Source: Rubrivivax sp. (GTDB taxonomy: Bacteria > Pseudomonadota > Gammaproteobacteria > Burkholderiales > Burkholderiaceae_C). From it: a stretch of DNA of 36,296 nt. The DNA lies in NCBI GenBank assembly GCA_016790435.1, contig JAEUPE010000113.1, forward strand, positions 1-36,296, in the 5' to 3' direction. The first letter of the stretch is position 1. Each line of letters begins with the position of its first letter. Under the pieces are notes generated by a model. That model searched no databases and was not told the DNA's origin. It saw only the letters and a list, made by a program, of their open reading frames with translations. The translations under genes were made by a program, and so were the position numbers. Of this stretch, positions 3,454-24,792 are shown piece by piece.

Positions 3454-4332
3454 TCAATCGGCTGCGAGGGCGGGCAACATCGAAGGAGCAGGCGCGACGG
3501 CAGCCGCGGCGGACGCCTCCGGGCCCGCCTGCGCCAGCCAGCGCCGCAGCGCCAGTTGCCCCGCTGCGGACATGTTCTCCCAACGACATCCGATCCGGTG
3601 CGCATTGCGGCCGAGCGCCGCCACGTGCTGCACGCGTGCGTCGGCCACGATGACCTGCGTGTCGTCCAGTTCCAGTTCCACGCGCGGCAGGTCGCTGCCG
3701 GGCGCCGGGGGCACCACGCCGGCCGGCAGCATGACCGCGCAGCCGAGTTCGCTGATGTCGAGCACGCGCAGGTTGCGCGTGCTCACCAGGTAGTGGCCAC
3801 CGCAGAAGCGCACCACCGGCCCGCGCGACGGCGGCCGCGCCGCCCCCGTCACGACGCGGGGCGCCAGCCGGCGCGAGGTGCGATAGATCTCGCGCGGCCA
3901 TCGCGCCTGGATGAGAAAGCGCTCACCCCGCTCGACCCGCTCACCCGGCGCATGCGCACCTGCCAGCCCCTTCGAGCGCGCGACTCCCGTGCCCTCGCGC
4001 GCCGCGCAGGGCGCGGCGAGCACGAACTGCACGCGCAAGCCGTGCAGCAGCGCAGCGGCCCAGGCCGGGCGCCCCTGCAGGGCGCGCGCGATGGCGATGC
4101 CGTCATCGTGGCTCGCCAGCACGAGTTGCTGTTGCATCAGGTCGACGAACTGCAGCGTGGCCGTGACGCCACGGGTGCCGGCCGCGCCCACGTGCAGCGC
4201 GAGAGCGCGATCGCAGAGCTCGCGCAGCACTTCGGCGTGCAGCGTGCCTTCGTCGTCAGGGCGGCTGACACGCCAGCCCACCGCCTCGAACGGATCCTCG
4301 ATGTCGGCCAGCGGCACGTGCACGGCGCCCAT
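3454..4332 (-). CDS. PilZ domain cyclic-di-GMP receptor, YcgR-like
   Basis: Predicted cyclic-di-GMP effector of 292 residues. The N-terminal half (about 1-140) resembles the flagellar-brake (YcgR) N domain. A PilZ domain follows from about residue 145, with the two ligand-binding motifs intact: RxxxR as Arg147-Glu-Ile-Tyr-Arg151, and D/NxSxxG as Asp192-Ile-Ser-Glu-Leu-Gly197. The C-terminal tail is alanine/proline-rich. YcgR-type proteins slow the flagellar motor when cyclic-di-GMP rises; that role here is inferred. The gene starts 10 bases after the stop of the GGDEF-EAL gene, so an enzyme controlling cyclic-di-GMP and a receptor for it are probably made together. A TGAGG ribosome site precedes the ATG. 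Confidence 0.82.
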   Translation of the reverse strand: MGAVHVPLADIEDPFEAVGWRVSRPDDEGTLHAEVLRELCDRALALHVGAAGTRGVTATLQFVDLMQQQLVLASHDDGIAIARALQGRPAWAAALLHGLRVQFVLAAPCAAREGTGVARSKGLAGAHAPGERVERGERFLIQARWPREIYRTSRRLAPRVVTGAARPPSRGPVVRFCGGHYLVSTRNLRVLDISELGCAVMLPAGVVPPAPGSDLPRVELELDDTQVIVADARVQHVAALGRNAHRIGCRWENMSAAGQLALRRWLAQAGPEASAAAAVAPAPSMLPALAAD

Positions 4333-4342
4333 GTCTGCAGCC

Positions 4343-6621
4343 TCACATCACCGGGATGGGGTCGAGCGCGCCGTGCGAGCTGAACAGGCTCTCGATCTGC
4401 GCGCGGCGGAGCAGCAGCCGCTCGAACTCCGGCACGCTCACGGCGCGGCTGGTGAGGAAGCCCTGGTACTCGTCGCAACGCACCGACTGCAGGAAGGCAA
4501 GCTGGGCGGGTGTCTCCACGCCCTCGGCCACCACCTTCAGCTTGAGGCTGTGCGCGAGCGCCACGATGGCGCTGACGATCGCCGCGTCGTCGGGATCGGT
4601 CTCGAGGTCGCGCACGAACGAACGGTCGATCTTCAGCGCCGCGATCGGCAGCTTCTTCAGGTAGCTCATCGACGAGTAGCCGGTGCCGAAGTCGTCGATC
4701 GACAGCGTCACGCCCATCGCGGCGAGCTCCTGCGCGATGCTCACGCTCAGCTCCGGGTCGGCGAGCAGGATCGATTCGGTGACCTCGATCTCCAGGCAGC
4801 TCGCCGGCACGCCCTGCTCGGCGAGCGCCTGCGCCACGCGCGCCGGCAGGCCACGCTCGCGCAGGTGCGTGGAAGCCAGGTTCACGGCGATGGGCACCGG
4901 GTTCAGCCCGGCCGCCACCCAGGCGGCACTCTGCCGGCAGACGGTCTGGATGGCCCACTCGCCGATCGGGATCACGAGGCCGGCGTCCTCGACGAGCGGG
5001 ATGAACTCGGCCGGCGGCAGCAGGCCGCGCTCGGGGTCCTGCCAGCGGATGAGCGCCTCGGCGCCGACGATGCGCCCGCTCACCACGTCCACACGCGGCT
5101 GGTAGTGCAGCACGAACTCGTTGCGCTCGAGCGCGCGGCGCAGACGCGTCTCCATGTGCAGGCGGTCGAGCGCCCGCGCGTTCATCGAGCGGTCGTAGAG
5201 CTGGAAGCCGCCGCGGCCGGCCGCCTTGGCGCGGTACATGGCCGTGTCGGCGTTCATCAGCAGGGTGTCGATGTCGGTGCCGTCCTCGGGGTACGAAGCG
5301 ACGCCGACGCTGCCGCCGACGAACACCTCGGTGCCCTGCACGACGATGGGCTCGGCGAGCGTGCGCACCAGGCGCTGCGCGACGCCGGCGACGTTCTCGG
5401 GCATCTGCACGTCGGTGAGCATGACGATGAACTCGTCGCCGCCCAGGCGGGCGATGTGCTGCACCGCTGCATCGGCCGCCTCGGCGGGCTCGCTGCCGTT
5501 GCGCGCCACCGAGTCGTGTGAGCGCAATGCCGCCGCCAGGCGCGAGCTCGCCTTGCACAGCAGCTCGTCGCCGGCACGGTGACCGAGCGTGTCGTTGACA
5601 CGCTTGAAGTTGTCGAGGTCGACGAACATGATCGCCAGCCGGCGGCCATGGCGCGCCGCCTGCGCCAGCGCGCGCTCGAGCTGCTCGACGAAGAGCAGCC
5701 GGTTCGGCAGCCCCGTGAGCGGGTCGTAGTAGGCGAGGCGACGGATCTGTTCCTCGGCGTCCTTGCGGCGCGTGATGTCGTGCACCACGCCGGCCAGGCG
5801 CAGCGCCTGGCCCTCGGCGCCGCGCTCGGCCACCTCGACCTGCTGGTGCACGTGGCGCACCCGACCGTCGGCCAGCAGCATGCGGTGGTCGACGGCGAAA
5901 CCCTCACCCTGCGCCGCCGCGTTGGCGAAGGCGTTGTTCAGGCGCGGCGCATCCTCGGCATGCACGTCGGCGAAGAAGTCCTCGGGGCCGGTCGCGCGCT
6001 GCCCGCCGGCGTGGCCGAAGATGCGCCAGGCCTGTTCGGAGGAGCTGATGCGGTTGTCGCGGAGGTCCCACTCCCAGTCGCCCATCTCGCCGATGCGCTG
6101 CGCGTTGGACAGCCGGCGCTGGTTCTGCTGCAACTCGTCGATGGCGGCGCTGGCGCGCATCATGTAGCGCACCCGGTGCGGCAGCACGGCCCAGTTGATC
6201 GGCTTGGTGATGAAGTCGGTGGCGCCGGCCTCGAAGGCGCGTTCGATGGACGCGGTGTCGTCCAGGCCGGTCATCATCACCACGGGCACGCGCTCGCCGC
6301 CGGGCAGGTGGCGCAACTCGGCGCAGGCGGTGAAGCCGTCCATCACCGGCATGCTCACGTCGAGCAGCACGAGGTCGGGCATGCCGGCACGCATGGCGTC
6401 CAGGGCGGCCCGGCCATCGCCGGCTTCACTCACCGCGAAGCCCGCCTTGGTGAGCGTGGCGCGGGTCAGGCGGCGGCCGCCGGCGTCGTCGTCGACCACC
6501 AGCACATGTGGGCGCGAGGCGGCCACGGCGGCCACGGCGGCCCCGGCCGCCAAGGCCGCCGCAGGCGCAGCGCACGGTGCCGGCAGTGCCGCCGGCTTGG
6601 GGACGGGGGAGGCTTCGGTGT

Positions 6622-6625
<4 letters not shown>
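4343..6625 (-). CDS. Response regulator with REC-PAS-GGDEF-EAL domains
   Basis: Cytoplasmic two-component regulator of 760 residues that should make or break cyclic-di-GMP. Order: an alanine-rich leader (1-38), a receiver domain (39-155) with phospho-acceptor Asp89 and Lys141, a PAS domain (about 175-290), GGDEF (about 296-478) and EAL (about 485-745). The active loop GGDEF is intact at 395-399. The phosphodiesterase residues are also present: EALIR (523-527), Asn582, the Glu in EVTES, the Asp pair in IDDFGTGYS, Lys in KIDRSF, the Glu in AEGVET and the Gln in YQGF. About 18 extra residues (376-393) sit just before GGDEF. Both activities could work; the sequence does not tell which dominates. 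It overlaps the end of the kinase gene by four bases (ATGA), so that kinase is its likely partner. Confidence 0.93.
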
Positions 6626-8319
<1,694 letters not shown>

Positions 8320-8334
8320 GGCGTGCGGCAGTCG

Positions 8335-9743
<1,409 letters not shown>

Positions 9744-9747
<4 letters not shown>

Positions 9748-10526
9748 AGCGATCCCCAGGCGGTTTCGAGGCAGGGCCGTTCGGCGAAGTCGAACTCCCA
9801 GACTTCGGCGTTGCCGAGGTCCAGGCGTTCGCGCAAGCCGATCAGTTCGCCGAGCACGCGCCCGACGCCCTTGCTGCCGACGAGCAGCGGCCGCTCGGCC
9901 AGCTGCTGCTTGATCTTGCGCACGGCATCGGCCACGCGCCGGGTGAACTCGTCGTCCGACTCGCCGCCCGGCGGCGTCATGCGCGCCTCGAACCAGGGCT
10001 GCGTCTCGGCGATGGGCCGCAGGTTCCACTCACCCAGGCGGCGCTCGGAGAAGGCGGGCTGCACGAGCATCGTCACGCCCGGCAGGCTCCTGGCGATGAT
10101 GTCGGCCGTCTCGCGGTTGCGCCTCAGGTCGCTGGTGACGATCAGCTTCACCGGCGGCTCGAGCCGCGCGATGCGCTGCGCCACCGTCGCGGCCTGCGCG
10201 CGGCCCATGGCGGTGAGAGGCACGTCGAGGTCGCCGCCGCAGCGCAGACCGGCCAGGTTGGGCGCCGTGGCACCGTGGCGCACGAAGCGCAGGGGCAGGC
10301 GGTGGTCGACGAGGTCGGAGGTGGGAGACGCGGAGTTCGGCGCAGCGGTCAACACGGCAGTCGGCAGGAGGGTCGAGGATGAGAGGGCGCGCGCGGCGGG
10401 CACCGCCTTCGGCAGGCGTTCCGCATGGCACGACGGATGCGGCGGGCGCGACGAGCCCGACGAGCGCATGCGTGCGGCCGCGCGGGGCTTCGAGGGTCGG
10501 CGGGCGACCGCGTGCTCTTGTGGCAT
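9744..10526 (-). CDS. Histidine phosphatase (phosphoglycerate mutase-like) family protein, second His absent
   Basis: A 260-residue protein with a low-complexity, basic N-terminus (about 1-75) followed by a histidine-phosphatase fold. The catalytic start motif is present (FVRHGATAPN, Arg83-His84-Gly85), as are a TSDLRRNRETA segment and Glu161 in SERRLGEW. The usual second catalytic histidine (SHGG near the C-terminus) is replaced: the matching segment reads VGSKGVGRV with Lys219. Activity is therefore doubtful; it may be a binding or regulatory protein. The start used is the ATG at 10526, 13 bases after the hydrolase stop; a longer frame back to 10640 runs inside the hydrolase gene. It overlaps the kinase start by ATGA, so it may take part in that signalling pathway. 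Confidence 0.78.
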
Positions 10527-10539
10527 GGGAAAGCTCGGC

Positions 10540-11754
10540 TCAGCGCAGCGCGCTCGCCGGCGCGAACGGGATCGGGTTGCCGGGATAGGCGTCCCGCGCC
10601 GGCGCGTGCAGCACGCTCCACTCGGCGCCGGCCGGCACACCGCCGGCCAGCCACTGGCGGATGAAGTCGATCTGGTTGCGGTCGGCGAGCAGCGGCGTGT
10701 GACCGGTGTCGGGCACGTGCATCACGGCCACCGGCTTGCCGCGGCGCATGCGCTCGAGGGTCGGCAGCAGCAAGGCGTCGGACTGCATGCCGTGGATCAG
10801 CAGCACCGGGCAGTCAACGCTGCGCCATTGCGCCCACTGCACGACGCTGTGCCGCGACGTGCGGCGGTAGGCCTGCATGGCGCGCACGTCGTGGCGGTAG
10901 ACGCGGCCGCTCTCCTCGTCCGACCAGCGCGTCTGGTGGAACGAGAGGTTGAAGCGGATGTCGTCGCTGACCGGACCGTCGTTCTTGTTCGAGGCGCCCA
11001 CGCGGCGCAGCAGGTCGCCGGGGTTGCGGAACACGTAGTGCCGGGCGATGGCCTCGGCACGCCGCTTGCGCCGGCGCGCCGGGATGTGCGGGCCCACGTC
11101 GTTGAGGATCAGGCGCTCGATGAGCCCGGGGTGGTGCGAGATCAGCTCGATGGCAGCGGTGCCGCCCATCGACGACCCAAGGACCGTGACGCCCTGGCCG
11201 GCGGCGCGGGCGCCGCGCCGGCGGCCGCTTCGGGCGCCTGCACCGGCGCTGTCGAGGTGCAGGATCATCTGCCGCAGTTGCTCGGCATAGGTGGGGAGCG
11301 AGTAGTCCTCTTCCGCGGCCAGCCAGCCCGAGCGGCCACGCCCGAGCCAGTCCATGCAGATGACGCGATAGCGGTCGGCCAGGTCCGAGGCCAGGTAGTG
11401 GAAGCGCATGGCCACGTTGGCCACGCCACCGCAGCAGAGCAGGACCGGCGCGTCGGCCGCGCCCCACTCGGTGTAGGCCACGGGCGTGACATACGCACGC
11501 CGCAGGCGCCGGGGCGTGCCCGGTTGCAGCCGCGTCGGGTGTTCGTAGTCGAAGTGGCGCAGCTGGAAGTGGCCATGGAAACGACCGACCACACGGCTGG
11601 CCAGGGCCATGTACTCGTTCCACGAGCCCAGCGAGCGACGCTGGCCGGGCAGCGGCGGCTCCCAGGCCACGTCCGGCAGCGCGCCGCCCAGCGGGGCAGG
11701 CACGGTGTCACCGAACTCGGCCTGGCGCGCAACGACATTGAGCTGCGCTCTCAT
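10540..11754 (-). CDS. Alpha/beta hydrolase
   Basis: A 404-residue alpha/beta-hydrolase-fold protein with the triad Ser195 in GSSMGG, probably Asp325 in GMQSDAL and His351 in DTGHTP. The oxyanion-hole region is LLCCGGVAN. An extra N-terminal region of about 85 residues and a Gly/Arg-rich insert (about 170-187) just before the nucleophile strand set it apart from minimal family members. The substrate cannot be read from the sequence. It heads the minus-strand run, 13 bases before the phosphatase-like gene, and its ATG overlaps the stop of a possible leader ORF as ATGA. No signal peptide is seen, so it is probably cytoplasmic. Confidence 0.88.
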   Translation of the reverse strand: MRAQLNVVARQAEFGDTVPAPLGGALPDVAWEPPLPGQRRSLGSWNEYMALASRVVGRFHGHFQLRHFDYEHPTRLQPGTPRRLRRAYVTPVAYTEWGAADAPVLLCCGGVANVAMRFHYLASDLADRYRVICMDWLGRGRSGWLAAEEDYSLPTYAEQLRQMILHLDSAGAGARSGRRRGARAAGQGVTVLGSSMGGTAAIELISHHPGLIERLILNDVGPHIPARRRKRRAEAIARHYVFRNPGDLLRRVGASNKNDGPVSDDIRFNLSFHQTRWSDEESGRVYRHDVRAMQAYRRTSRHSVVQWAQWRSVDCPVLLIHGMQSDALLLPTLERMRRGKPVAVMHVPDTGHTPLLADRNQIDFIRQWLAGGVPAGAEWSVLHAPARDAYPGNPIPFAPASALR

Positions 11755-11854: not shown

Positions 11855-12077
11855 TTCTTGTTCCTGTCCGCCCTTCGGCCCCTTCGCCGGAACGGCCGTC
11901 AGGGCTGGTATCGGAGTGCCCCGGACCGACTTGAGCGGAAATGACGCCGCTTCTCCACCGATTGCCGGCCGGCGCCGCTGGCAGCCTCGGGGGCATCAAG
12001 TTGGCACCCGTTTTGCCGAAAGCACCGGGGCCGCCTCTGGCGCACAAAACCGCCGGATTCGCAGGCAGGAACAAGAA
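11855..12077. repeat. 12-bp inverted repeat forming mirrored translation leaders
   Basis: Positions 11855-11866 and 12066-12077 are exact inverted copies. Each lies directly upstream of an ATG pointing outward: 11852 on the minus strand and 12080 on the plus strand. Each carries an AGGA ribosome-site-like core. The stretch between them holds the sigma-54 element and no gene, so this is the shared divergent control region of about 225 bases. The pairing may reflect a duplicated leader rather than a hairpin, since the arms are 199 bases apart. Confidence 0.6.
12001..12017 (+). promoter_or_regulatory. Sigma-54 (RpoN) -24/-12 promoter
   Basis: The element ttggcacccgttttgcc matches the RpoN consensus TGGCAC-N5-TTGC. 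The -24 GG (12003-12004) and the -12 GC (12015-12016) are separated by exactly ten bases, as required. Transcription would begin near 12028, about 50 bases before the ATG at 12080. Such promoters need an AAA+ enhancer-binding activator; none is encoded in this window. Confidence 0.65.
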
Positions 12078-12079
12078 GC

Positions 12080-12916
12080 ATGGATTCAACCAAGAGCAGG
12101 ATGATTGGCGTGGCCGTCGTGGTCTGCGGCTTCGCCGTGGGCATGGCCGGCCTGCTCAACTACTTCAAGTACCGCAGCACCTCCAACCGTCTCGTCACCG
12201 AGCGGCTGGTCGTCACGGGGCGCTCGGTCGAGAACTCGATCCAGTCGTCGCTGGCGCTCGGGTTGCAGTTCTCCGACATCGGCACGCTGCCCGGCATCCT
12301 CGACCGCGAGCAGGCCACCGACAGCCTGATCCAGGGCATCGACATCTTCGACACCGAGGGCAAGCTGCTCTACAGCACCGACCGCCTGCGCGCCTCGCGG
12401 CCCGTGCCCAGTGCCTGGCTCGCCGCCGCGCGCAAGGCCAGCAACAAGGACTGGCTCGTCGACGATGGCGCGGAAGCCGCCACCGGCATCTCGGTGCAGA
12501 ACAACTTCGGCCTCACGATTGGCTACCTGGCGCTGCGCTTCTCGGGCGAGCGCGTGCGCGACGAGACCCACGCCGTGGGGCGCCAGATCGCGCTCTCCAG
12601 CCTGCTCGTGTTCCTGGCCGCCGCTGGGCTGTCGTCGGTGGCGCTGCTGTCGGTGATGCGGCGCCTGGGTAGCGATGTCGGTCGCGTCGAAGCGGCGCTG
12701 CGCGCCGGGGATTCGGCGCGCGCCACGGCCATCGCCTCGCGCGGCCCCTTCGGCCCCGCGCTGCTTCGCTTCCTGAAGACCACCCGCCTGGCCGAGGCCG
12801 AGGTGGCCCGTCTGCGTTCCCAGCTGCAGTCCGAGCAACCGGGTGGCCAGGCCAGAGCCACCCGCCCCTCCACCGGCGTGAAAGTCACGACCCGCAGCAG
12901 GGAGGTGGCGCAATGA
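12080..12916 (+). CDS. Two-TM periplasmic sensor-like membrane protein without output domain
   Basis: No family name is certain. The 278-residue protein has TM1 at about residues 9-28, an extracytoplasmic domain of about 140 residues, TM2 at about 169-193 and an 85-residue cytoplasmic tail. The outer domain contains a strand pattern like Cache/PAS-type sensors (IQGIDIFDTEGKLLYST at 84-100). The first part of the tail looks HAMP-like, with a predicted helical segment at about 235-252. There is no kinase, cyclase, methyl-accepting or DNA-binding domain. The next gene starts inside its stop codon (ATGA, 12913-12916) and encodes a protein with the same N-terminal plan, so the two may form a complex. 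It lies just downstream of the sigma-54 element, with an AGGA ribosome site. Confidence 0.75.
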   Translation: MDSTKSRMIGVAVVVCGFAVGMAGLLNYFKYRSTSNRLVTERLVVTGRSVENSIQSSLALGLQFSDIGTLPGILDREQATDSLIQGIDIFDTEGKLLYSTDRLRASRPVPSAWLAAARKASNKDWLVDDGAEAATGISVQNNFGLTIGYLALRFSGERVRDETHAVGRQIALSSLLVFLAAAGLSSVALLSVMRRLGSDVGRVEAALRAGDSARATAIASRGPFGPALLRFLKTTRLAEAEVARLRSQLQSEQPGGQARATRPSTGVKVTTRSREVAQ

Positions 12917-15015
12917 GCAACCACTATCTGCGCAGGATCTACCTGCGCCTGGCGGGTGCGGTGACGCTCGTCGTCATGGTGGCGCTGCTCGCCAACGCCT
13001 ACCTCTCGCACCGCACCTTCGAGCGCGCACTCGCGCCGCAGCTGGGGAGCAAGATGGCCAGCGTCGGCGGCTCCATCTCCGCCCTCGTGCTGAAAGCCGT
13101 CGAAAACGGCGTGCCGTTCAGCGAGCTGTACGGGGTGAACGAGCGCTTCCAGGAAGTGAAGTCCGAGATGCCCGAGGTGGCCTATCTCGCTCTCACGGAC
13201 ACGCACGGCACCATCCTGCATCAGAGCACGACCGCGCCGGAAGGCGCCGCCGCGCACTTTGCGCTGCCGACAACGCTCAAGCTGCTCGAGGGCAACGCCG
13301 GCACTTCGAGCGTGCAGCGCGTGGGCAAGCTCTTCATGGTCTCTGTGTCGGTGGCATCGGCGGAGCGCAAGCTGGGCCTGCTGCACATGGGCGTGGACCT
13401 GCGCTTCGTCGACGACATGGTGCTCGACATGCTGCTCGACGTGCTCGTCGTGCTCGTCGTGGCCCTGTTCTTCACGCTGGAGCTGATGCACTTCATCGCC
13501 GGCGCCAAGCTCGACGCCTCGCTACGTGACCTGGGCGAGACCTTCGAGCGCGGCAGCACGGGCAACTTCGTGATCCCCGTCCGCCTGGGCGTCGATCAGG
13601 CCTTCGGTGGCCTGCTGAAGGTGCTCGACGGCGTGCTGGCCCGCCTGAACGATGCCTACGAGGCCCTGGCACACGAGCTCGAGCGCAGCCGCCACGTGCC
13701 CACGCACGAGAGGCATCCGGGCATGCGCCTGGCGCACCGTGGCGCCACGGAGCTGGCGGCGCGCTTCCAGTTCGGCCGTGCATCCAAGGCCGAGCTGCGC
13801 GACGTGAGCGAGCTGGCCAAGGTGCGGGCGCCGCTCTTCGTCTTCATCCTCGCCGAGGAACTGACGCGCTCGTTCCTGCCCGGCTACGTCAACGACCTGC
13901 TCGTGCCGGTGCCGGGCGTCTCCAGCCAGATCCTGATCGGCCTGCCGATCGCGCTGTTCATGCTCATCGTCGCCATCGCGCAGCCCTTCCTCGGCGTGCA
14001 CTGCGAGCGCGTGGGGCATCGGCGCACGATGCTGGCCGGCGCGGCCATCGCGGCGACGGGCTTCCTGGCCAGCGCCATGGCGCACACGGTGCTCGACCTG
14101 CTGATCTGGCGCTCATTGTGCGCGGTCGGTTACGCCATGGTCTTCGTCGCCGCGCAGAGCTACGTGCTCGACCACGCGCCGCGCCAGCAGCGGGCCAAGA
14201 GCTTCGCGCTCTTCGTCGGCGCGATCATGGCCGCCACGGTTTGCGGCCCCTCGATCGGCGGCATCCTGGCCGACAACGTGGGCGTGCGCCCGACGCTGGT
14301 CATTGCGGCGCTGCTGGCTGCGGTGTCGATCCTCGTCATCCGGCAGCTGCCCGACAACCGCGCGCGCCAGGCCGACGAGCTGCCGGCGCGCGTGCCGACC
14401 TGGCGCGAGTTCGGCGCGCTCGTCTTCAACCGGCGCTTCATGACCGTGACCGGGCTGGCCGCCATGCCGGCGAAGATGCTGCTCACCGGCATCTGCTTCT
14501 ACCTGCTGCCGCTGCACCTGGTGGCCAGCGGCAGCACGCAGAGCATGGCCGGGCGCCTGCTGATGATCTATGCCGTCGTCATGGTCGTGCTCGGCCCGCT
14601 GATGGCCTCGCTGGCCGTCTCGCGCGAGCGCATGCACTGGCTGGTCGGCGGTGGCCTCGTGGTCTCCGGCCTCGGCGGCGCGGCGGTCTTGGCCGGCGGC
14701 GGCATCGGCTGGATCCTGCTCGCGGTGCTGCTCATCGGCCTCGGGCAATCGATGTCGATCTCGGCCCAGAGCGCCCTCGTCGCCGAGCACTGCACCGAAG
14801 AGATCGCGCGCCTGGGCGACGGGGTCGTCTACGGCGTCTACCGGCTGCTGGAGCGCATCGGCAACGCACTCGGGCCGGTGGTCGCGGCGGCGCTCGTGAT
14901 GCGCTTCAACTACGAAATCGGCTTCGTCGCCATCGGCACGGTGGCCATCGTCGCCGGCCTCGCCTTCCTTGCCGCCACGCGGCAGCCTCCGGCTTCGGCT
15001 CTGGCGCCAGCCTGA
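12913..15015 (+). CDS. Periplasmic-sensor/HAMP-like domain fused to MFS transporter
   Basis: A 700-residue inner-membrane protein with two parts in one unbroken frame. Residues 1-256 are sensor-like: TM1 (about 12-30), an outer domain (31-170) with a Cache-like segment (VAYLALTDTHGTILHQS), TM2 (about 173-196) and a HAMP-like stretch (about 198-256). Residues 303-690 are an MFS transporter with about twelve hydrophobic segments and a loop 2-3 motif-A variant (GVHCERVGHRR, 361-371). MFS proteins are normally about 400-450 residues, so the first 300 are extra. The plan suggests transport gated or tuned by a periplasmic ligand; that is inference. The substrate is unknown. It sits between the sensor-like gene (ATGA overlap) and a periplasmic binding protein gene 33 bases downstream. 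Confidence 0.85.
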   Translation: MSNHYLRRIYLRLAGAVTLVVMVALLANAYLSHRTFERALAPQLGSKMASVGGSISALVLKAVENGVPFSELYGVNERFQEVKSEMPEVAYLALTDTHGTILHQSTTAPEGAAAHFALPTTLKLLEGNAGTSSVQRVGKLFMVSVSVASAERKLGLLHMGVDLRFVDDMVLDMLLDVLVVLVVALFFTLELMHFIAGAKLDASLRDLGETFERGSTGNFVIPVRLGVDQAFGGLLKVLDGVLARLNDAYEALAHELERSRHVPTHERHPGMRLAHRGATELAARFQFGRASKAELRDVSELAKVRAPLFVFILAEELTRSFLPGYVNDLLVPVPGVSSQILIGLPIALFMLIVAIAQPFLGVHCERVGHRRTMLAGAAIAATGFLASAMAHTVLDLLIWRSLCAVGYAMVFVAAQSYVLDHAPRQQRAKSFALFVGAIMAATVCGPSIGGILADNVGVRPTLVIAALLAAVSILVIRQLPDNRARQADELPARVPTWREFGALVFNRRFMTVTGLAAMPAKMLLTGICFYLLPLHLVASGSTQSMAGRLLMIYAVVMVVLGPLMASLAVSRERMHWLVGGGLVVSGLGGAAVLAGGGIGWILLAVLLIGLGQSMSISAQSALVAEHCTEEIARLGDGVVYGVYRLLERIGNALGPVVAAALVMRFNYEIGFVAIGTVAIVAGLAFLAATRQPPASALAPA

Positions 15016-15048
15016 CTCACCAACCCCAACAAACGCGGAGCCCGAACG

Positions 15049-16128
15049 ATGGACCCCCTCTTGACCCGAATCCTCAATCGACGCCTGAGCCGTCGCGACT
15101 GGCTCGCCCTCGGCGGCGCCTCGGCAGGGTCGGCCGCGCTGCCCGCCTCACTGGCAGCCGAGCCTCTGCCGCGCGCCGGCCAGCGCCCGTTTCGCATCTA
15201 TGCCGTCACGTTCCGCGGCATGACGGACGTGGAGAAGGGCTTCGCCGAGTACTTCGCTTCGCGCAAGATCCCGGTGCAGATCAGCTACCGCGACATGAAC
15301 CGCGAGCCGACGCGCCTGGCCGGCTTCCTCGACGAGATCCGTGCCACCCGGCCCGACCTCATCTACGCCTGGGGCACTTCGGTCACGCTCGGCCTCGTCG
15401 GCCCCTACGACGCCGTGGTGCCGAGCCAGCACATCACCGACATCCCGGTCGTCTTCACGCTCGTGGCGGCGCCGACGCTGGCCAAGATCGTGCCCGACAT
15501 GAAGGCCTCGGGCCGCAATGTCACGGGCGTCACGCACGTCGGCCCCACCGATGCGCAGATGCGCGCGATGGCGCAGTACCGCCCCTTCCAGACGCTCGGC
15601 GTGCTGTACACACCGACCGAGAAGAACTCGGTGGTGGTGCTGGAGGAGATCCGCCGCCTCGGCCGCGAGATGGGCTTCCACACGGTGGAGCGCACGTTCC
15701 GCCTGGATGCGCAGCGCAAGCCCGTGGCCGATGGTGCCGCCGACCTCGTGCGCGAGCTGAAGGAGGCGGGCGCGCAGTGGCTGTACCTCTCGCCCGACAG
15801 CTTCCTCGGCACGCTCGCCGAGGGCGTGGTCATCCCGACCGCGATGTCGCTCGGCCTGCCGACGTTCGCCTCCACCGAGCAGCTGATGCAGGCGGGCGCC
15901 CTGTCGGGTCTCGTCAGCCGCTACTACAACGTGGGCCAGTTCACGGCGCACAAGGCTGAGCAGATCCTGGTGGGCAAGACGCCGGCATCGCAGATTCCGG
16001 TGGAGACGCTCAAGCGCTTCTCCTACCAGATCCGCATGCCGGCGGCGAAGCGGCTGAACCTGCCTCCGCCGCTGCCGATGCTGAGCTACGCGGAGTTGAT
16101 TCACACGGACGCCGTGGCGTCGCAGTGA
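15049..16128 (+). CDS. ABC-type substrate-binding protein (ABC_sub_bind family), Tat-exported
   Basis: A 359-residue periplasmic binding protein that resembles the ABC_sub_bind family (Pfam PF04392). The N-terminus has a twin-arginine export signal, SRRDWLAL at residues 14-21, then an alanine-rich hydrophobic stretch to about residue 37 (SLAAEP). The mature part shows two alternating Rossmann-like lobes, with ATRPDLIYAWGTSVT and QWLYLSPDSFLG typical of this family. Tat export implies the protein folds before crossing. No ABC permease or ATPase gene is nearby; the preceding gene is a sensor-MFS fusion, so the binding protein may present its ligand to that protein's outer domain. The ligand is not known. 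Confidence 0.87.
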   Translation: MDPLLTRILNRRLSRRDWLALGGASAGSAALPASLAAEPLPRAGQRPFRIYAVTFRGMTDVEKGFAEYFASRKIPVQISYRDMNREPTRLAGFLDEIRATRPDLIYAWGTSVTLGLVGPYDAVVPSQHITDIPVVFTLVAAPTLAKIVPDMKASGRNVTGVTHVGPTDAQMRAMAQYRPFQTLGVLYTPTEKNSVVVLEEIRRLGREMGFHTVERTFRLDAQRKPVADGAADLVRELKEAGAQWLYLSPDSFLGTLAEGVVIPTAMSLGLPTFASTEQLMQAGALSGLVSRYYNVGQFTAHKAEQILVGKTPASQIPVETLKRFSYQIRMPAAKRLNLPPPLPMLSYAELIHTDAVASQ

Positions 16129-16242: not shown

Positions 16243-17583
16243 ATGTACCACGCCGAAGCGGGGGCCCGCCCCGAAGTGCTGCGCGCGTCGCTGGATGCAC
16301 GGGCGCGCAGCCGCGTGCCGCGCATGGTGGTGTTCATCGGCTGCGTCAGCCTGCTCACCGACGTGGCCGCCGAGATGGTGGCCAGCGTGCTGCCGCTGTA
16401 CCTGTTCATGGTGCTGCGGCTCTCGCCGCTCGAGTACGGCTGGATCGACGGCCTCTTCAACGGCAGCTCGGCCATCGTCCGGGTCTGGTTCGCGCATTGG
16501 GCCGATCGCACGCAGCAGCACAAGCGCATCGCCTTTCTCGGTTATGCGCTCTCGGCGCTGTCGCGCATCGGACTGTTCGTCGCCGGGCTAGGCGGCTGGA
16601 TCTCCGTGGCCGTGGTGCTGCTGCTGGACCGCGTCGGCAAGGGCATCCGCACGGCCCCGCGCGACGCGATGATCGCCCAGTGCACCAGCGCACCGGCGCT
16701 GGGCGCGGCCTTCGGCGTGCACCGCGCCATGGATGCCGTCGGCGCCCTGGCCGGGCCGCTGCTGGCGACGGGGCTGCTGTTCGCGTTCCCGGGTCGCTTC
16801 GACCTCGTCTTCGCGGTGAGCGCCGCCTTTGCGATCTCCGGGCTGGTCGTGCTGGCGCGGTGGGTGAAGATGCCCGCCGCTGCCACGGCACCCGAGGAAG
16901 CAGCCGGCGGCGCTGCGCCGCCGGGCCGCACGGCTTCCGCCCAGGCGGCGGGCCCGCCGCCCGCGACACGAGCCCCCGCGGAGTGGCGAGCGCTGCTGCG
17001 CGCGCCCTACGTGGCGCTGTGCGGTTGCTGCGCGCTGCTGGCGCTGTTCACGGTGTCCGACGGCATGGTCTACGCCGGCCTGCAGGCACGCGGCCGGGTC
17101 GATCCGGCCTGGCTGCCCATGCTGTTCGTGGCCACGGCCGGTGTCTTCATGGCCGCGGCCATCCCCATCGGCCGGCTCTCCGACCGGTTCGGGCCGATGT
17201 CGGTGTTCGCGGCGGGCCACGTCGGGCTGGTGACCATGTACGCGCTCGCCAGCGTCGACCTGCTGCCGGCGCCGATGACGATCGCGGCCACGGTGACGCT
17301 GCTGGGCCTGTACTACGCGGCCACCGACGGGGTCGTGATGGCGCTGCTGGCCCGGGGCCTGCCGGCCGCCATCCGCACCACTGGCATGGCCGTCGTCACC
17401 AGCGTGATCGGGCTCGCGCGCATGGCCGCCTCGGTGTTCTTCGGCTGGTGCTGGACCGAGTGGTCGCACGAATCGGCGATGGGCGTGTTCGCCGCCGGGC
17501 TGACGACGAGCCTGCTGCTGACGCTGCTCGCGATCCGCTGGTGGTCGCTGGCGGCCCCCTCGACGTGGAGAGGAGAACGATGA
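16243..17583 (+). CDS. MFS transporter
   Basis: A 446-residue major-facilitator protein with about twelve hydrophobic segments. The halves are split by an alanine/proline/glycine-rich central loop (about 212-245). The N-half carries an RVGKGIRTAPRDAMI segment seen in a subgroup of MFS proteins, and a motif-A-like loop (WFAHWADRTQQHKR). A second motif-A copy (IPIGRLSDRFGPM) lies in the C-half. The substrate is unknown. Its stop overlaps the start of a secreted beta-propeller-like gene (ATGA, 17580-17583), so the two are probably made together. It may be expressed apart from the sensor-MFS operon, since two hairpins separate them. Confidence 0.88.
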   Translation: MYHAEAGARPEVLRASLDARARSRVPRMVVFIGCVSLLTDVAAEMVASVLPLYLFMVLRLSPLEYGWIDGLFNGSSAIVRVWFAHWADRTQQHKRIAFLGYALSALSRIGLFVAGLGGWISVAVVLLLDRVGKGIRTAPRDAMIAQCTSAPALGAAFGVHRAMDAVGALAGPLLATGLLFAFPGRFDLVFAVSAAFAISGLVVLARWVKMPAAATAPEEAAGGAAPPGRTASAQAAGPPPATRAPAEWRALLRAPYVALCGCCALLALFTVSDGMVYAGLQARGRVDPAWLPMLFVATAGVFMAAAIPIGRLSDRFGPMSVFAAGHVGLVTMYALASVDLLPAPMTIAATVTLLGLYYAATDGVVMALLARGLPAAIRTTGMAVVTSVIGLARMAASVFFGWCWTEWSHESAMGVFAAGLTTSLLLTLLAIRWWSLAAPSTWRGER

Positions 17584-24673: not shown

Positions 24674-24792
24674 CGCATATCGGCCGCCCAGGACGCCGCT
24701 TGAGCGTCGGGGCCCCGCCGGCGCCGTGATGTGTGGCGCGCCGGCGGTGCCGCCCGCCGGAGGGAACCAGGGATCCGGGTGGCCATCGATCA

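Follow-up and report, generated by a model that had tools for sequence, protein, structure and literature searches.

Solute-binding proteins that activate chemoreceptors, kinases, cyclic di-GMP (c-di-GMP) enzymes and Ser/Thr kinases through periplasmic domains are established, as parts of PMC9602780 describe. Here we consider a three-gene cassette of a Rubrivivax sp. in which a solute-binding protein (SBP) is encoded together with a membrane sensor, sens, and with a second sensor of the same kind fused to a carrier of the major facilitator superfamily (MFS). The DNA analyzed, called the window below, is a whole contig (C145, 36,296 nucleotides) of a 5.39 Mb metagenome-assembled genome, which has 302 contigs and is 80.8% complete. 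The three genes form a genuine and old unit and are inherited together. Our preferred reading, a tentative one, is that the cassette is an input module that would combine SBP-triggered sensing with transport and feed different outputs; in the window's lineage it would be transcribed by sigma-28 (FliA) with the late flagellar genes, and its output would be c-di-GMP and motility.

Relatives were collected through a match to the MFS protein (E 1e-60 or better in whole-genome searches), and counts seeded in this way tell how often the SBP and sens accompany the MFS protein, not how often SBPs of the family lack it. Matches were found at seven loci in named genomes, and in sets of genomes from the order (11 of 300), the class (5 of 369), the family (11 of 399) and the phylum (9 of 398); these sets overlap, and each tally includes the window's own genome. 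The unit is widespread but patchy among proteobacteria. Widened to loci, the matches give 42 distinct examples, the window included (L084, identical to L009, was dropped). Sens, MFS and SBP genes stand in the same order on one strand in 30 of them. Among the remaining 12, contig ends cut L005, L037 and L095; there is no separate sens gene in L089, L090, L108 and L109; L105 has the order SBP-sens-MFS; L091, L092 and L112 have a sens-like gene at another place in the cluster; and in L096 neither sens nor SBP was found beside the MFS gene. The SBP thus accompanies the MFS protein in 40 of the 42 loci, the exceptions being L096 and, at a contig end, L005. Identity to the window's MFS protein is 31-90% among the 20 proteins aligned, which are the less distant ones. 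Gene calls were made by our own script rather than a standard annotator, some SBP and sens starts are uncertain, and the sens assignment in L093, L094, L107, L110 and L111 relies on weak tblastn scores (45-69 bits).

Do the three genes also descend together? Their tree distances correlate (0.94, 0.90 and 0.94 over 30 loci; L029, a near copy of L028, is out of the trees and in the order count), though such correlations partly reflect shared species history. Paralogues make the stronger argument. Two cassettes are present in each of three genomes (G152, G250 and G022); because the copies sort into the same two groups in every tree, we conclude that sens, MFS and SBP descend together. Conservation of gene order had been set beforehand as one check on the unit; the order recurs, and the SBP stays with the MFS protein even in paralogous cassettes.

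The first-pass annotation had described three close genes, encoding an output-less sensor, a sensor-MFS fusion and a Tat-exported binding protein, with no ABC permease or ATPase present, and most of this description holds. The genes lie on one strand, sens overlapping the fusion gene by 4 bases and the SBP gene following after 33. Sens is a membrane Cache sensor in which no output domain was found: its AlphaFold model (pLDDT 86.4) has a Cache fold between two transmembrane helices that matches WalK, KinD, CitA and DcuS. No Pfam family exceeds its cut-off in sens (best sCache_4, 14.4 bits, E 0.035, cut-off 22.1), and dCache_1 appears at E 0.01 or better in 1 of 28 relatives. The N-terminal half of the fusion protein is homologous to sens (hhalign 97.6%, E 3.3e-12), and its carrier half exceeds the Pfam cut-off for MFS_1 (135.1 bits), with a fold like those of MdfA, VMAT2, NorA and SotB; its relatives are mainly exporters. 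HAMP was not recognized in sens or in the window's MFS protein (Pfam, E 0.05).

The SBP scores 89.9 bits against PF04392 (cut-off 25.9), is the only match to that family in the 81% complete genome, and has sequence relatives of solved structure (3lkv, 6hni, 3lft). Its ABC_sub_bind identity stands, and its N-terminus, LSRRDWLALGG, is Tat-like by inspection, but Tat export is not family-wide. In the closest group, 9 of 11 SBPs have RR in a Tat-like context, judged by eye (L087 reads HRRLITS; the L086 stretch was not usable). Tat export as a family trait was rejected, the SBPs of L025, L037, L093, L108, L110 and L111 having, again by eye, no RR in the signal.

Which sigma factor transcribes the cassette? 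The call of a near-perfect RpoN (sigma-54) promoter ahead of sens did not survive comparison. The window does contain an exact match to the -24/-12 elements (0.12 expected per window; p 0.002 in its own intergenic region), but this match is private to the window: in none of the 11 other comparable intergenic regions is it kept (2-4 mismatches, p at least 0.21), and sigma-54 control was rejected on conservation. Over the same bases lies a FliA box that reaches significance in 9 of 12 upstream regions (p at most 0.023), and the sigma-54 elements fall mostly in its 11-base spacer, which is unconserved. The FliA consensus quoted in PMC2859248, a source used in part, is TAAAGTTT-n11-GCCGATAA. The sens-side box has 3 mismatches to TCAAGTTT/GCCGATAA, and none of 1000 shuffles was as good; the E. 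coli flgKL FliA box also starts TCAAGTCC, according to an excerpt of PMC4183435. A divergent box on the abh side has 4 mismatches (p 0.006 in the window) and is significant in 8 of 12 regions (p at most 0.009), near significance in L083 (0.061) and absent in L009, L085 and L087. Boxes in the locus-by-locus comparison were chosen as best matches, so that conservation there is partly by choice. The fair tests are the shuffles and the column alignment, and when eight regions were aligned with MAFFT, the two boxes stood out most clearly as stretches in common.

The window's own genome encodes FliA, and the FliA motif (at most one mismatch) occurs in it 28 times, versus 12 for the reversed control. 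Ten genes were scanned downstream of the 26 matches outside the cassette locus. They encode two chemoreceptors, FliS, a PilZN/YcgR-like protein (called as starting just 3 bases from the box, so that its start may be wrong), a single-domain response regulator, a FIST protein, an HD-domain protein, a Cache histidine kinase, a Cache protein and a DUF1631 protein. A predicted FliA promoter in place of the RpoN promoter has moderate to strong support, and in this group the cassette seems to be expressed together with the late flagellar genes. The promoter call is corrected accordingly: the persuasive sigma-54 match is the unconserved spacer of a predicted sigma-28 promoter. One further FliA-like match, with one mismatch, lies at 24678-24703 of the window (- strand), 166 bases before a called open reading frame of 122 residues.

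What might the cassette report to? The first-pass annotation covered three genes only; the operon that diverges from the cassette, and the output proteins of relatives, are added here. The 12 closest loci keep the arrangement GGDEF-EAL <- hybrid histidine kinase <- pgm <- abh / sens -> MFS -> SBP, except that L005 ends before the SBP gene, and abh and pgm also lie beside the cassette in L025-L027. The hybrid kinase has PAS, HisKA, HATPase, two REC and Hpt domains. In relatives it is one open reading frame (about 980 residues in L007); in the window it is split between the HisKA and HATPase parts (8319-8335), either by a frameshift in the genome or by an assembly error. In the window a PilZ gene follows on the same strand as the GGDEF-EAL gene. 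The kinase and the REC-PAS-GGDEF-EAL protein, with the PilZ gene after them, therefore point to a c-di-GMP and motility output in the window's lineage.

Other cassettes adjoin other enzymes. Besides the histidine kinase/GGDEF-EAL pair at 12 of the 42 loci, a Ser/Thr kinase with dCache and a C-terminal HAMP domain is found at seven (L025, L026, L027, L030, L035, L089, L090). In L025 (10665-13121) and similar cases the kinase domain is N-terminal, dCache follows, and HAMP occupies residues 747-800 of 818 with nothing after it, as if contacting another protein. A dCache-HAMP nucleotide cyclase occurs at five loci (L028, L032 and L093 by Pfam, L029 and L033 by tblastn), most with cyclic-nucleotide-binding proteins. 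A SpoIIE phosphatase occurs at five (L091, L092, L105, L106, L112), with STAS and/or anti-sigma-type ATPase genes in three. Type VI secretion genes occur at five (L094, L107, L108, L109, L110), encoding Hcp, VgrG-like and ImpA proteins, a ClpV-like AAA protein or an FHA component; we know of no sensory input to type VI secretion. This recurrence is an observation rather than a test, as it was scored at cassette loci without a random-locus control. A GNAT acetyltransferase gene also often adjoins the cassette (L030, L031, L035, L036, L112 and others).

One might go further and regard the cassette as a general proteobacterial plug-in sensory unit, with a secondary transporter as part of the receptor and at least five outputs: histidine kinase/c-di-GMP, Ser/Thr kinase, cyclic-nucleotide cyclase, SpoIIE/STAS partner switching and type VI secretion. 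Several of the dCache-HAMP partner enzymes would then be driven by HAMP-like contacts to the cassette. We consider this extension possible but doubtful.

How would the input module of our preferred reading work? The periplasmic ABC_sub_bind protein would bind a small ligand and dock on the Cache domains of both sens and the fusion protein; by analogy with SBP-stimulated receptors, docking on one or both is likely. The two paralogous sensors would probably dimerize through their transmembrane and coiled-coil helices. From there the signal may run through the second transmembrane helix into the first helix of the MFS half and gate the DHA1-type carrier; the second helix and a helical linker lead directly into the carrier, offering such a path. 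The same signal could also inform the neighboring signaling enzyme, with sens, which has the same fold and no carrier, as the natural dimer partner and link to that enzyme. The earlier model, in which the binding protein contacts the sensor domains and controls the carrier, is plausible and fits this anatomy, both sensors being Cache domains. In the window's lineage sigma-28 would transcribe the cassette and the divergent operon along with the late flagellar genes, and because of that predicted co-transcription the output would most likely be c-di-GMP control of motility.

Several observations weigh against this reading. The sens-side box is weak in L086 (p 0.042), and L085 and L087 have neither box though fliA is in their genomes; the four loci fetched after the motif had been formed comprise one strong, one weak and two without a box. 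Conversely, L006 and L007 have the box, yet their genomes gave no FliA above the cut-off. No FliA box was noticed in distant cassettes, which were inspected by eye and not scanned, and for that reason we do not regard flagellar control as a property of the whole family. Eight of the 42 loci lack any recurring output class (L031, L034, L036, L037, L088, L095, L096, L111), and the kinase of L031 has tetratricopeptide repeats and no Cache domain. HAMP is weakly recognized in 3 of 20 MFS proteins. Finally, five genomes of the same genus listed in the family search lack the MFS protein.

Could the cassette simply be a transport system? The SBP would deliver ligand to the MFS carrier, or collect it there, in the manner of TRAP- or TTT-like systems, with the Cache domains as docking platforms and the signaling neighbors incidental. 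The constancy with which SBP accompanies MFS, and the failure to find an ABC partner on the contig, suit such a system. It is harder to see why a separate, carrier-less sensor should be kept too, or why output enzymes should recur next to the cassette, and the MFS half resembles exporters, which need no external binding protein. We think pure transport unlikely. The opposite extreme, that the MFS half no longer transports and has become a membrane signaling scaffold (a transceptor), as transporter domains may in SLC5/STAC kinases, seems to us improbable as well. The Cache half is strongly conserved, the neighbors are signaling genes, and the proline of the GPSIGG motif, which we take to be antiporter motif C, is lost in 5 of 20 MFS proteins; but the MFS motifs are intact in the other 15, the window's included, and this suggests that transport is retained.

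It is very unlikely that the SBP serves an ABC permease encoded elsewhere and is merely co-transcribed with sens and MFS. The genome does offer 53 BPD_transp_2 (PF02653) matches off the contig, but the SBP tree agrees with those of sens and MFS, also for the paralogues, and the genome yielded this one PF04392 protein. Pfam scans of 29 of the 33 called genes on the contig turned up no ABC component, none of the 53 PF02653 matches lies there, and neither does any of the 128 genome matches to PF00005 (150 of 225 candidates scored). ABC proteins of exporter type lie near some relatives (L111). Least probable of all is that sigma-54 transcribes the three genes, alone or beside sigma-28: sigma-54 genes are present (two matches) and the window's match is exact, but that match is missing even from relatives with 87-90% identical MFS proteins, 19 other upstream regions have no GG/GC match (at most two mismatches) at that place, and elsewhere only L006 and L007 (two mismatches) and L033 (one, across the start codon) have any.

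The features of the locus are collected in Table 1. The gene after that for the SBP encodes another MFS protein in the window, an ordinary one that lacks a sensor (16243-17583); close relatives have other genes there.

Table 1. Cassette, predicted promoters and divergent operon in the window
Feature	Position	Strand	Remarks
sens	12080-12916	+	Transmembrane helix, periplasmic single Cache domain, transmembrane helix, short cytoplasmic helix; no output domain
Sensor-MFS fusion	12913-15015	+	sens-like Cache half ~1-260, DHA1-type MFS half ~300-690
SBP: ABC_sub_bind (PF04392) solute-binding protein, Tat-like signal	15049-16128	+	
Predicted FliA (sigma-28) box TCAAGTTG-N11-GCCGAAAG ahead of sens-MFS-SBP	11996-12022	+	
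Divergent FliA-like box TCAAGTCG-N11-TCCGATAC towards abh	11908-11934	-	
Sigma-54-like TGGCAC-N5-TTGC, overlapping the FliA box; unconserved, probably chance	12002-12016	+	
abh: alpha/beta hydrolase, first gene of the divergent operon	10540-11754	-	Pfam
pgm: histidine phosphatase superfamily protein	9744-10403	-	PF00300, 100 bits
Hybrid histidine kinase, PAS-HisKA / HATPase-REC-REC-Hpt, two open reading frames (8335-10029 and 6622-8319)	6622-10029	-	
REC-PAS-GGDEF-EAL protein	4343-6505	-	Pfam
PilZ-domain protein, directly downstream of the GGDEF-EAL gene	3454-4332	-	PF07238, 33.4 bits, cut-off 22.5

If our preferred reading is right, signaling triggered by a binding protein and secondary transport would be joined in one unit. 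A carrier gated by, or reporting through, its own periplasmic sensor and a dedicated SBP would let bacteria couple what they transport with motility, second messengers, protein phosphorylation and perhaps type VI secretion. That one input unit lies beside five output types makes the module idea directly testable. Each part is of a known kind; we could not find the combination, or its recurrence beside several outputs, described, and a search of the open-licence PubMed Central literature found no description of the sens/sensor-MFS/SBP cassette, an absence that carries little weight there.

How, then, does the cassette compare with its nearest described counterparts? TrpX-type ABC_sub_bind proteins (3lft, 3lkv, 6hni) belong to PF04392 and are sequence relatives of the cassette SBP, which scores 86.9 bits against a TrpX cut-off of 390 and has no ABC permease or ATPase beside it. 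With the FliA (class 3) flagellar regulon the cassette shares its predicted promoter type and, in its own genome, the company of chemoreceptor, FliS and YcgR-like genes, although no transporter cassette was found as a member in the E. coli table of PMC4183435, of which an excerpt was used. The DHA1 drug:H+ antiporters MdfA, NorA, SotB and the VMATs have the fold of the carrier half and its GPxxGG motif, but the aligned chains (370-420 residues) have no Cache half, and identity is 15-19%. In the SLC5/STAC histidine kinases CbrA, CrbS and RpuS, as portions of PMC9100948 present them, a transporter domain and a signaling protein are likewise found in one system, but the carrier is of another superfamily and precedes the kinase domain, whereas in the cassette the sensor precedes the carrier and no kinase is fused. 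The SBP-stimulated receptors reviewed in PMC9602780, insofar as the parts used here describe them, likewise pair an SBP with a Cache-type sensor in the periplasm, and their output enzymes are of the same kinds. The cassette differs in that an MFS carrier is fused to the partner sensor, and in having a second copy of the sensor that has no output of its own.
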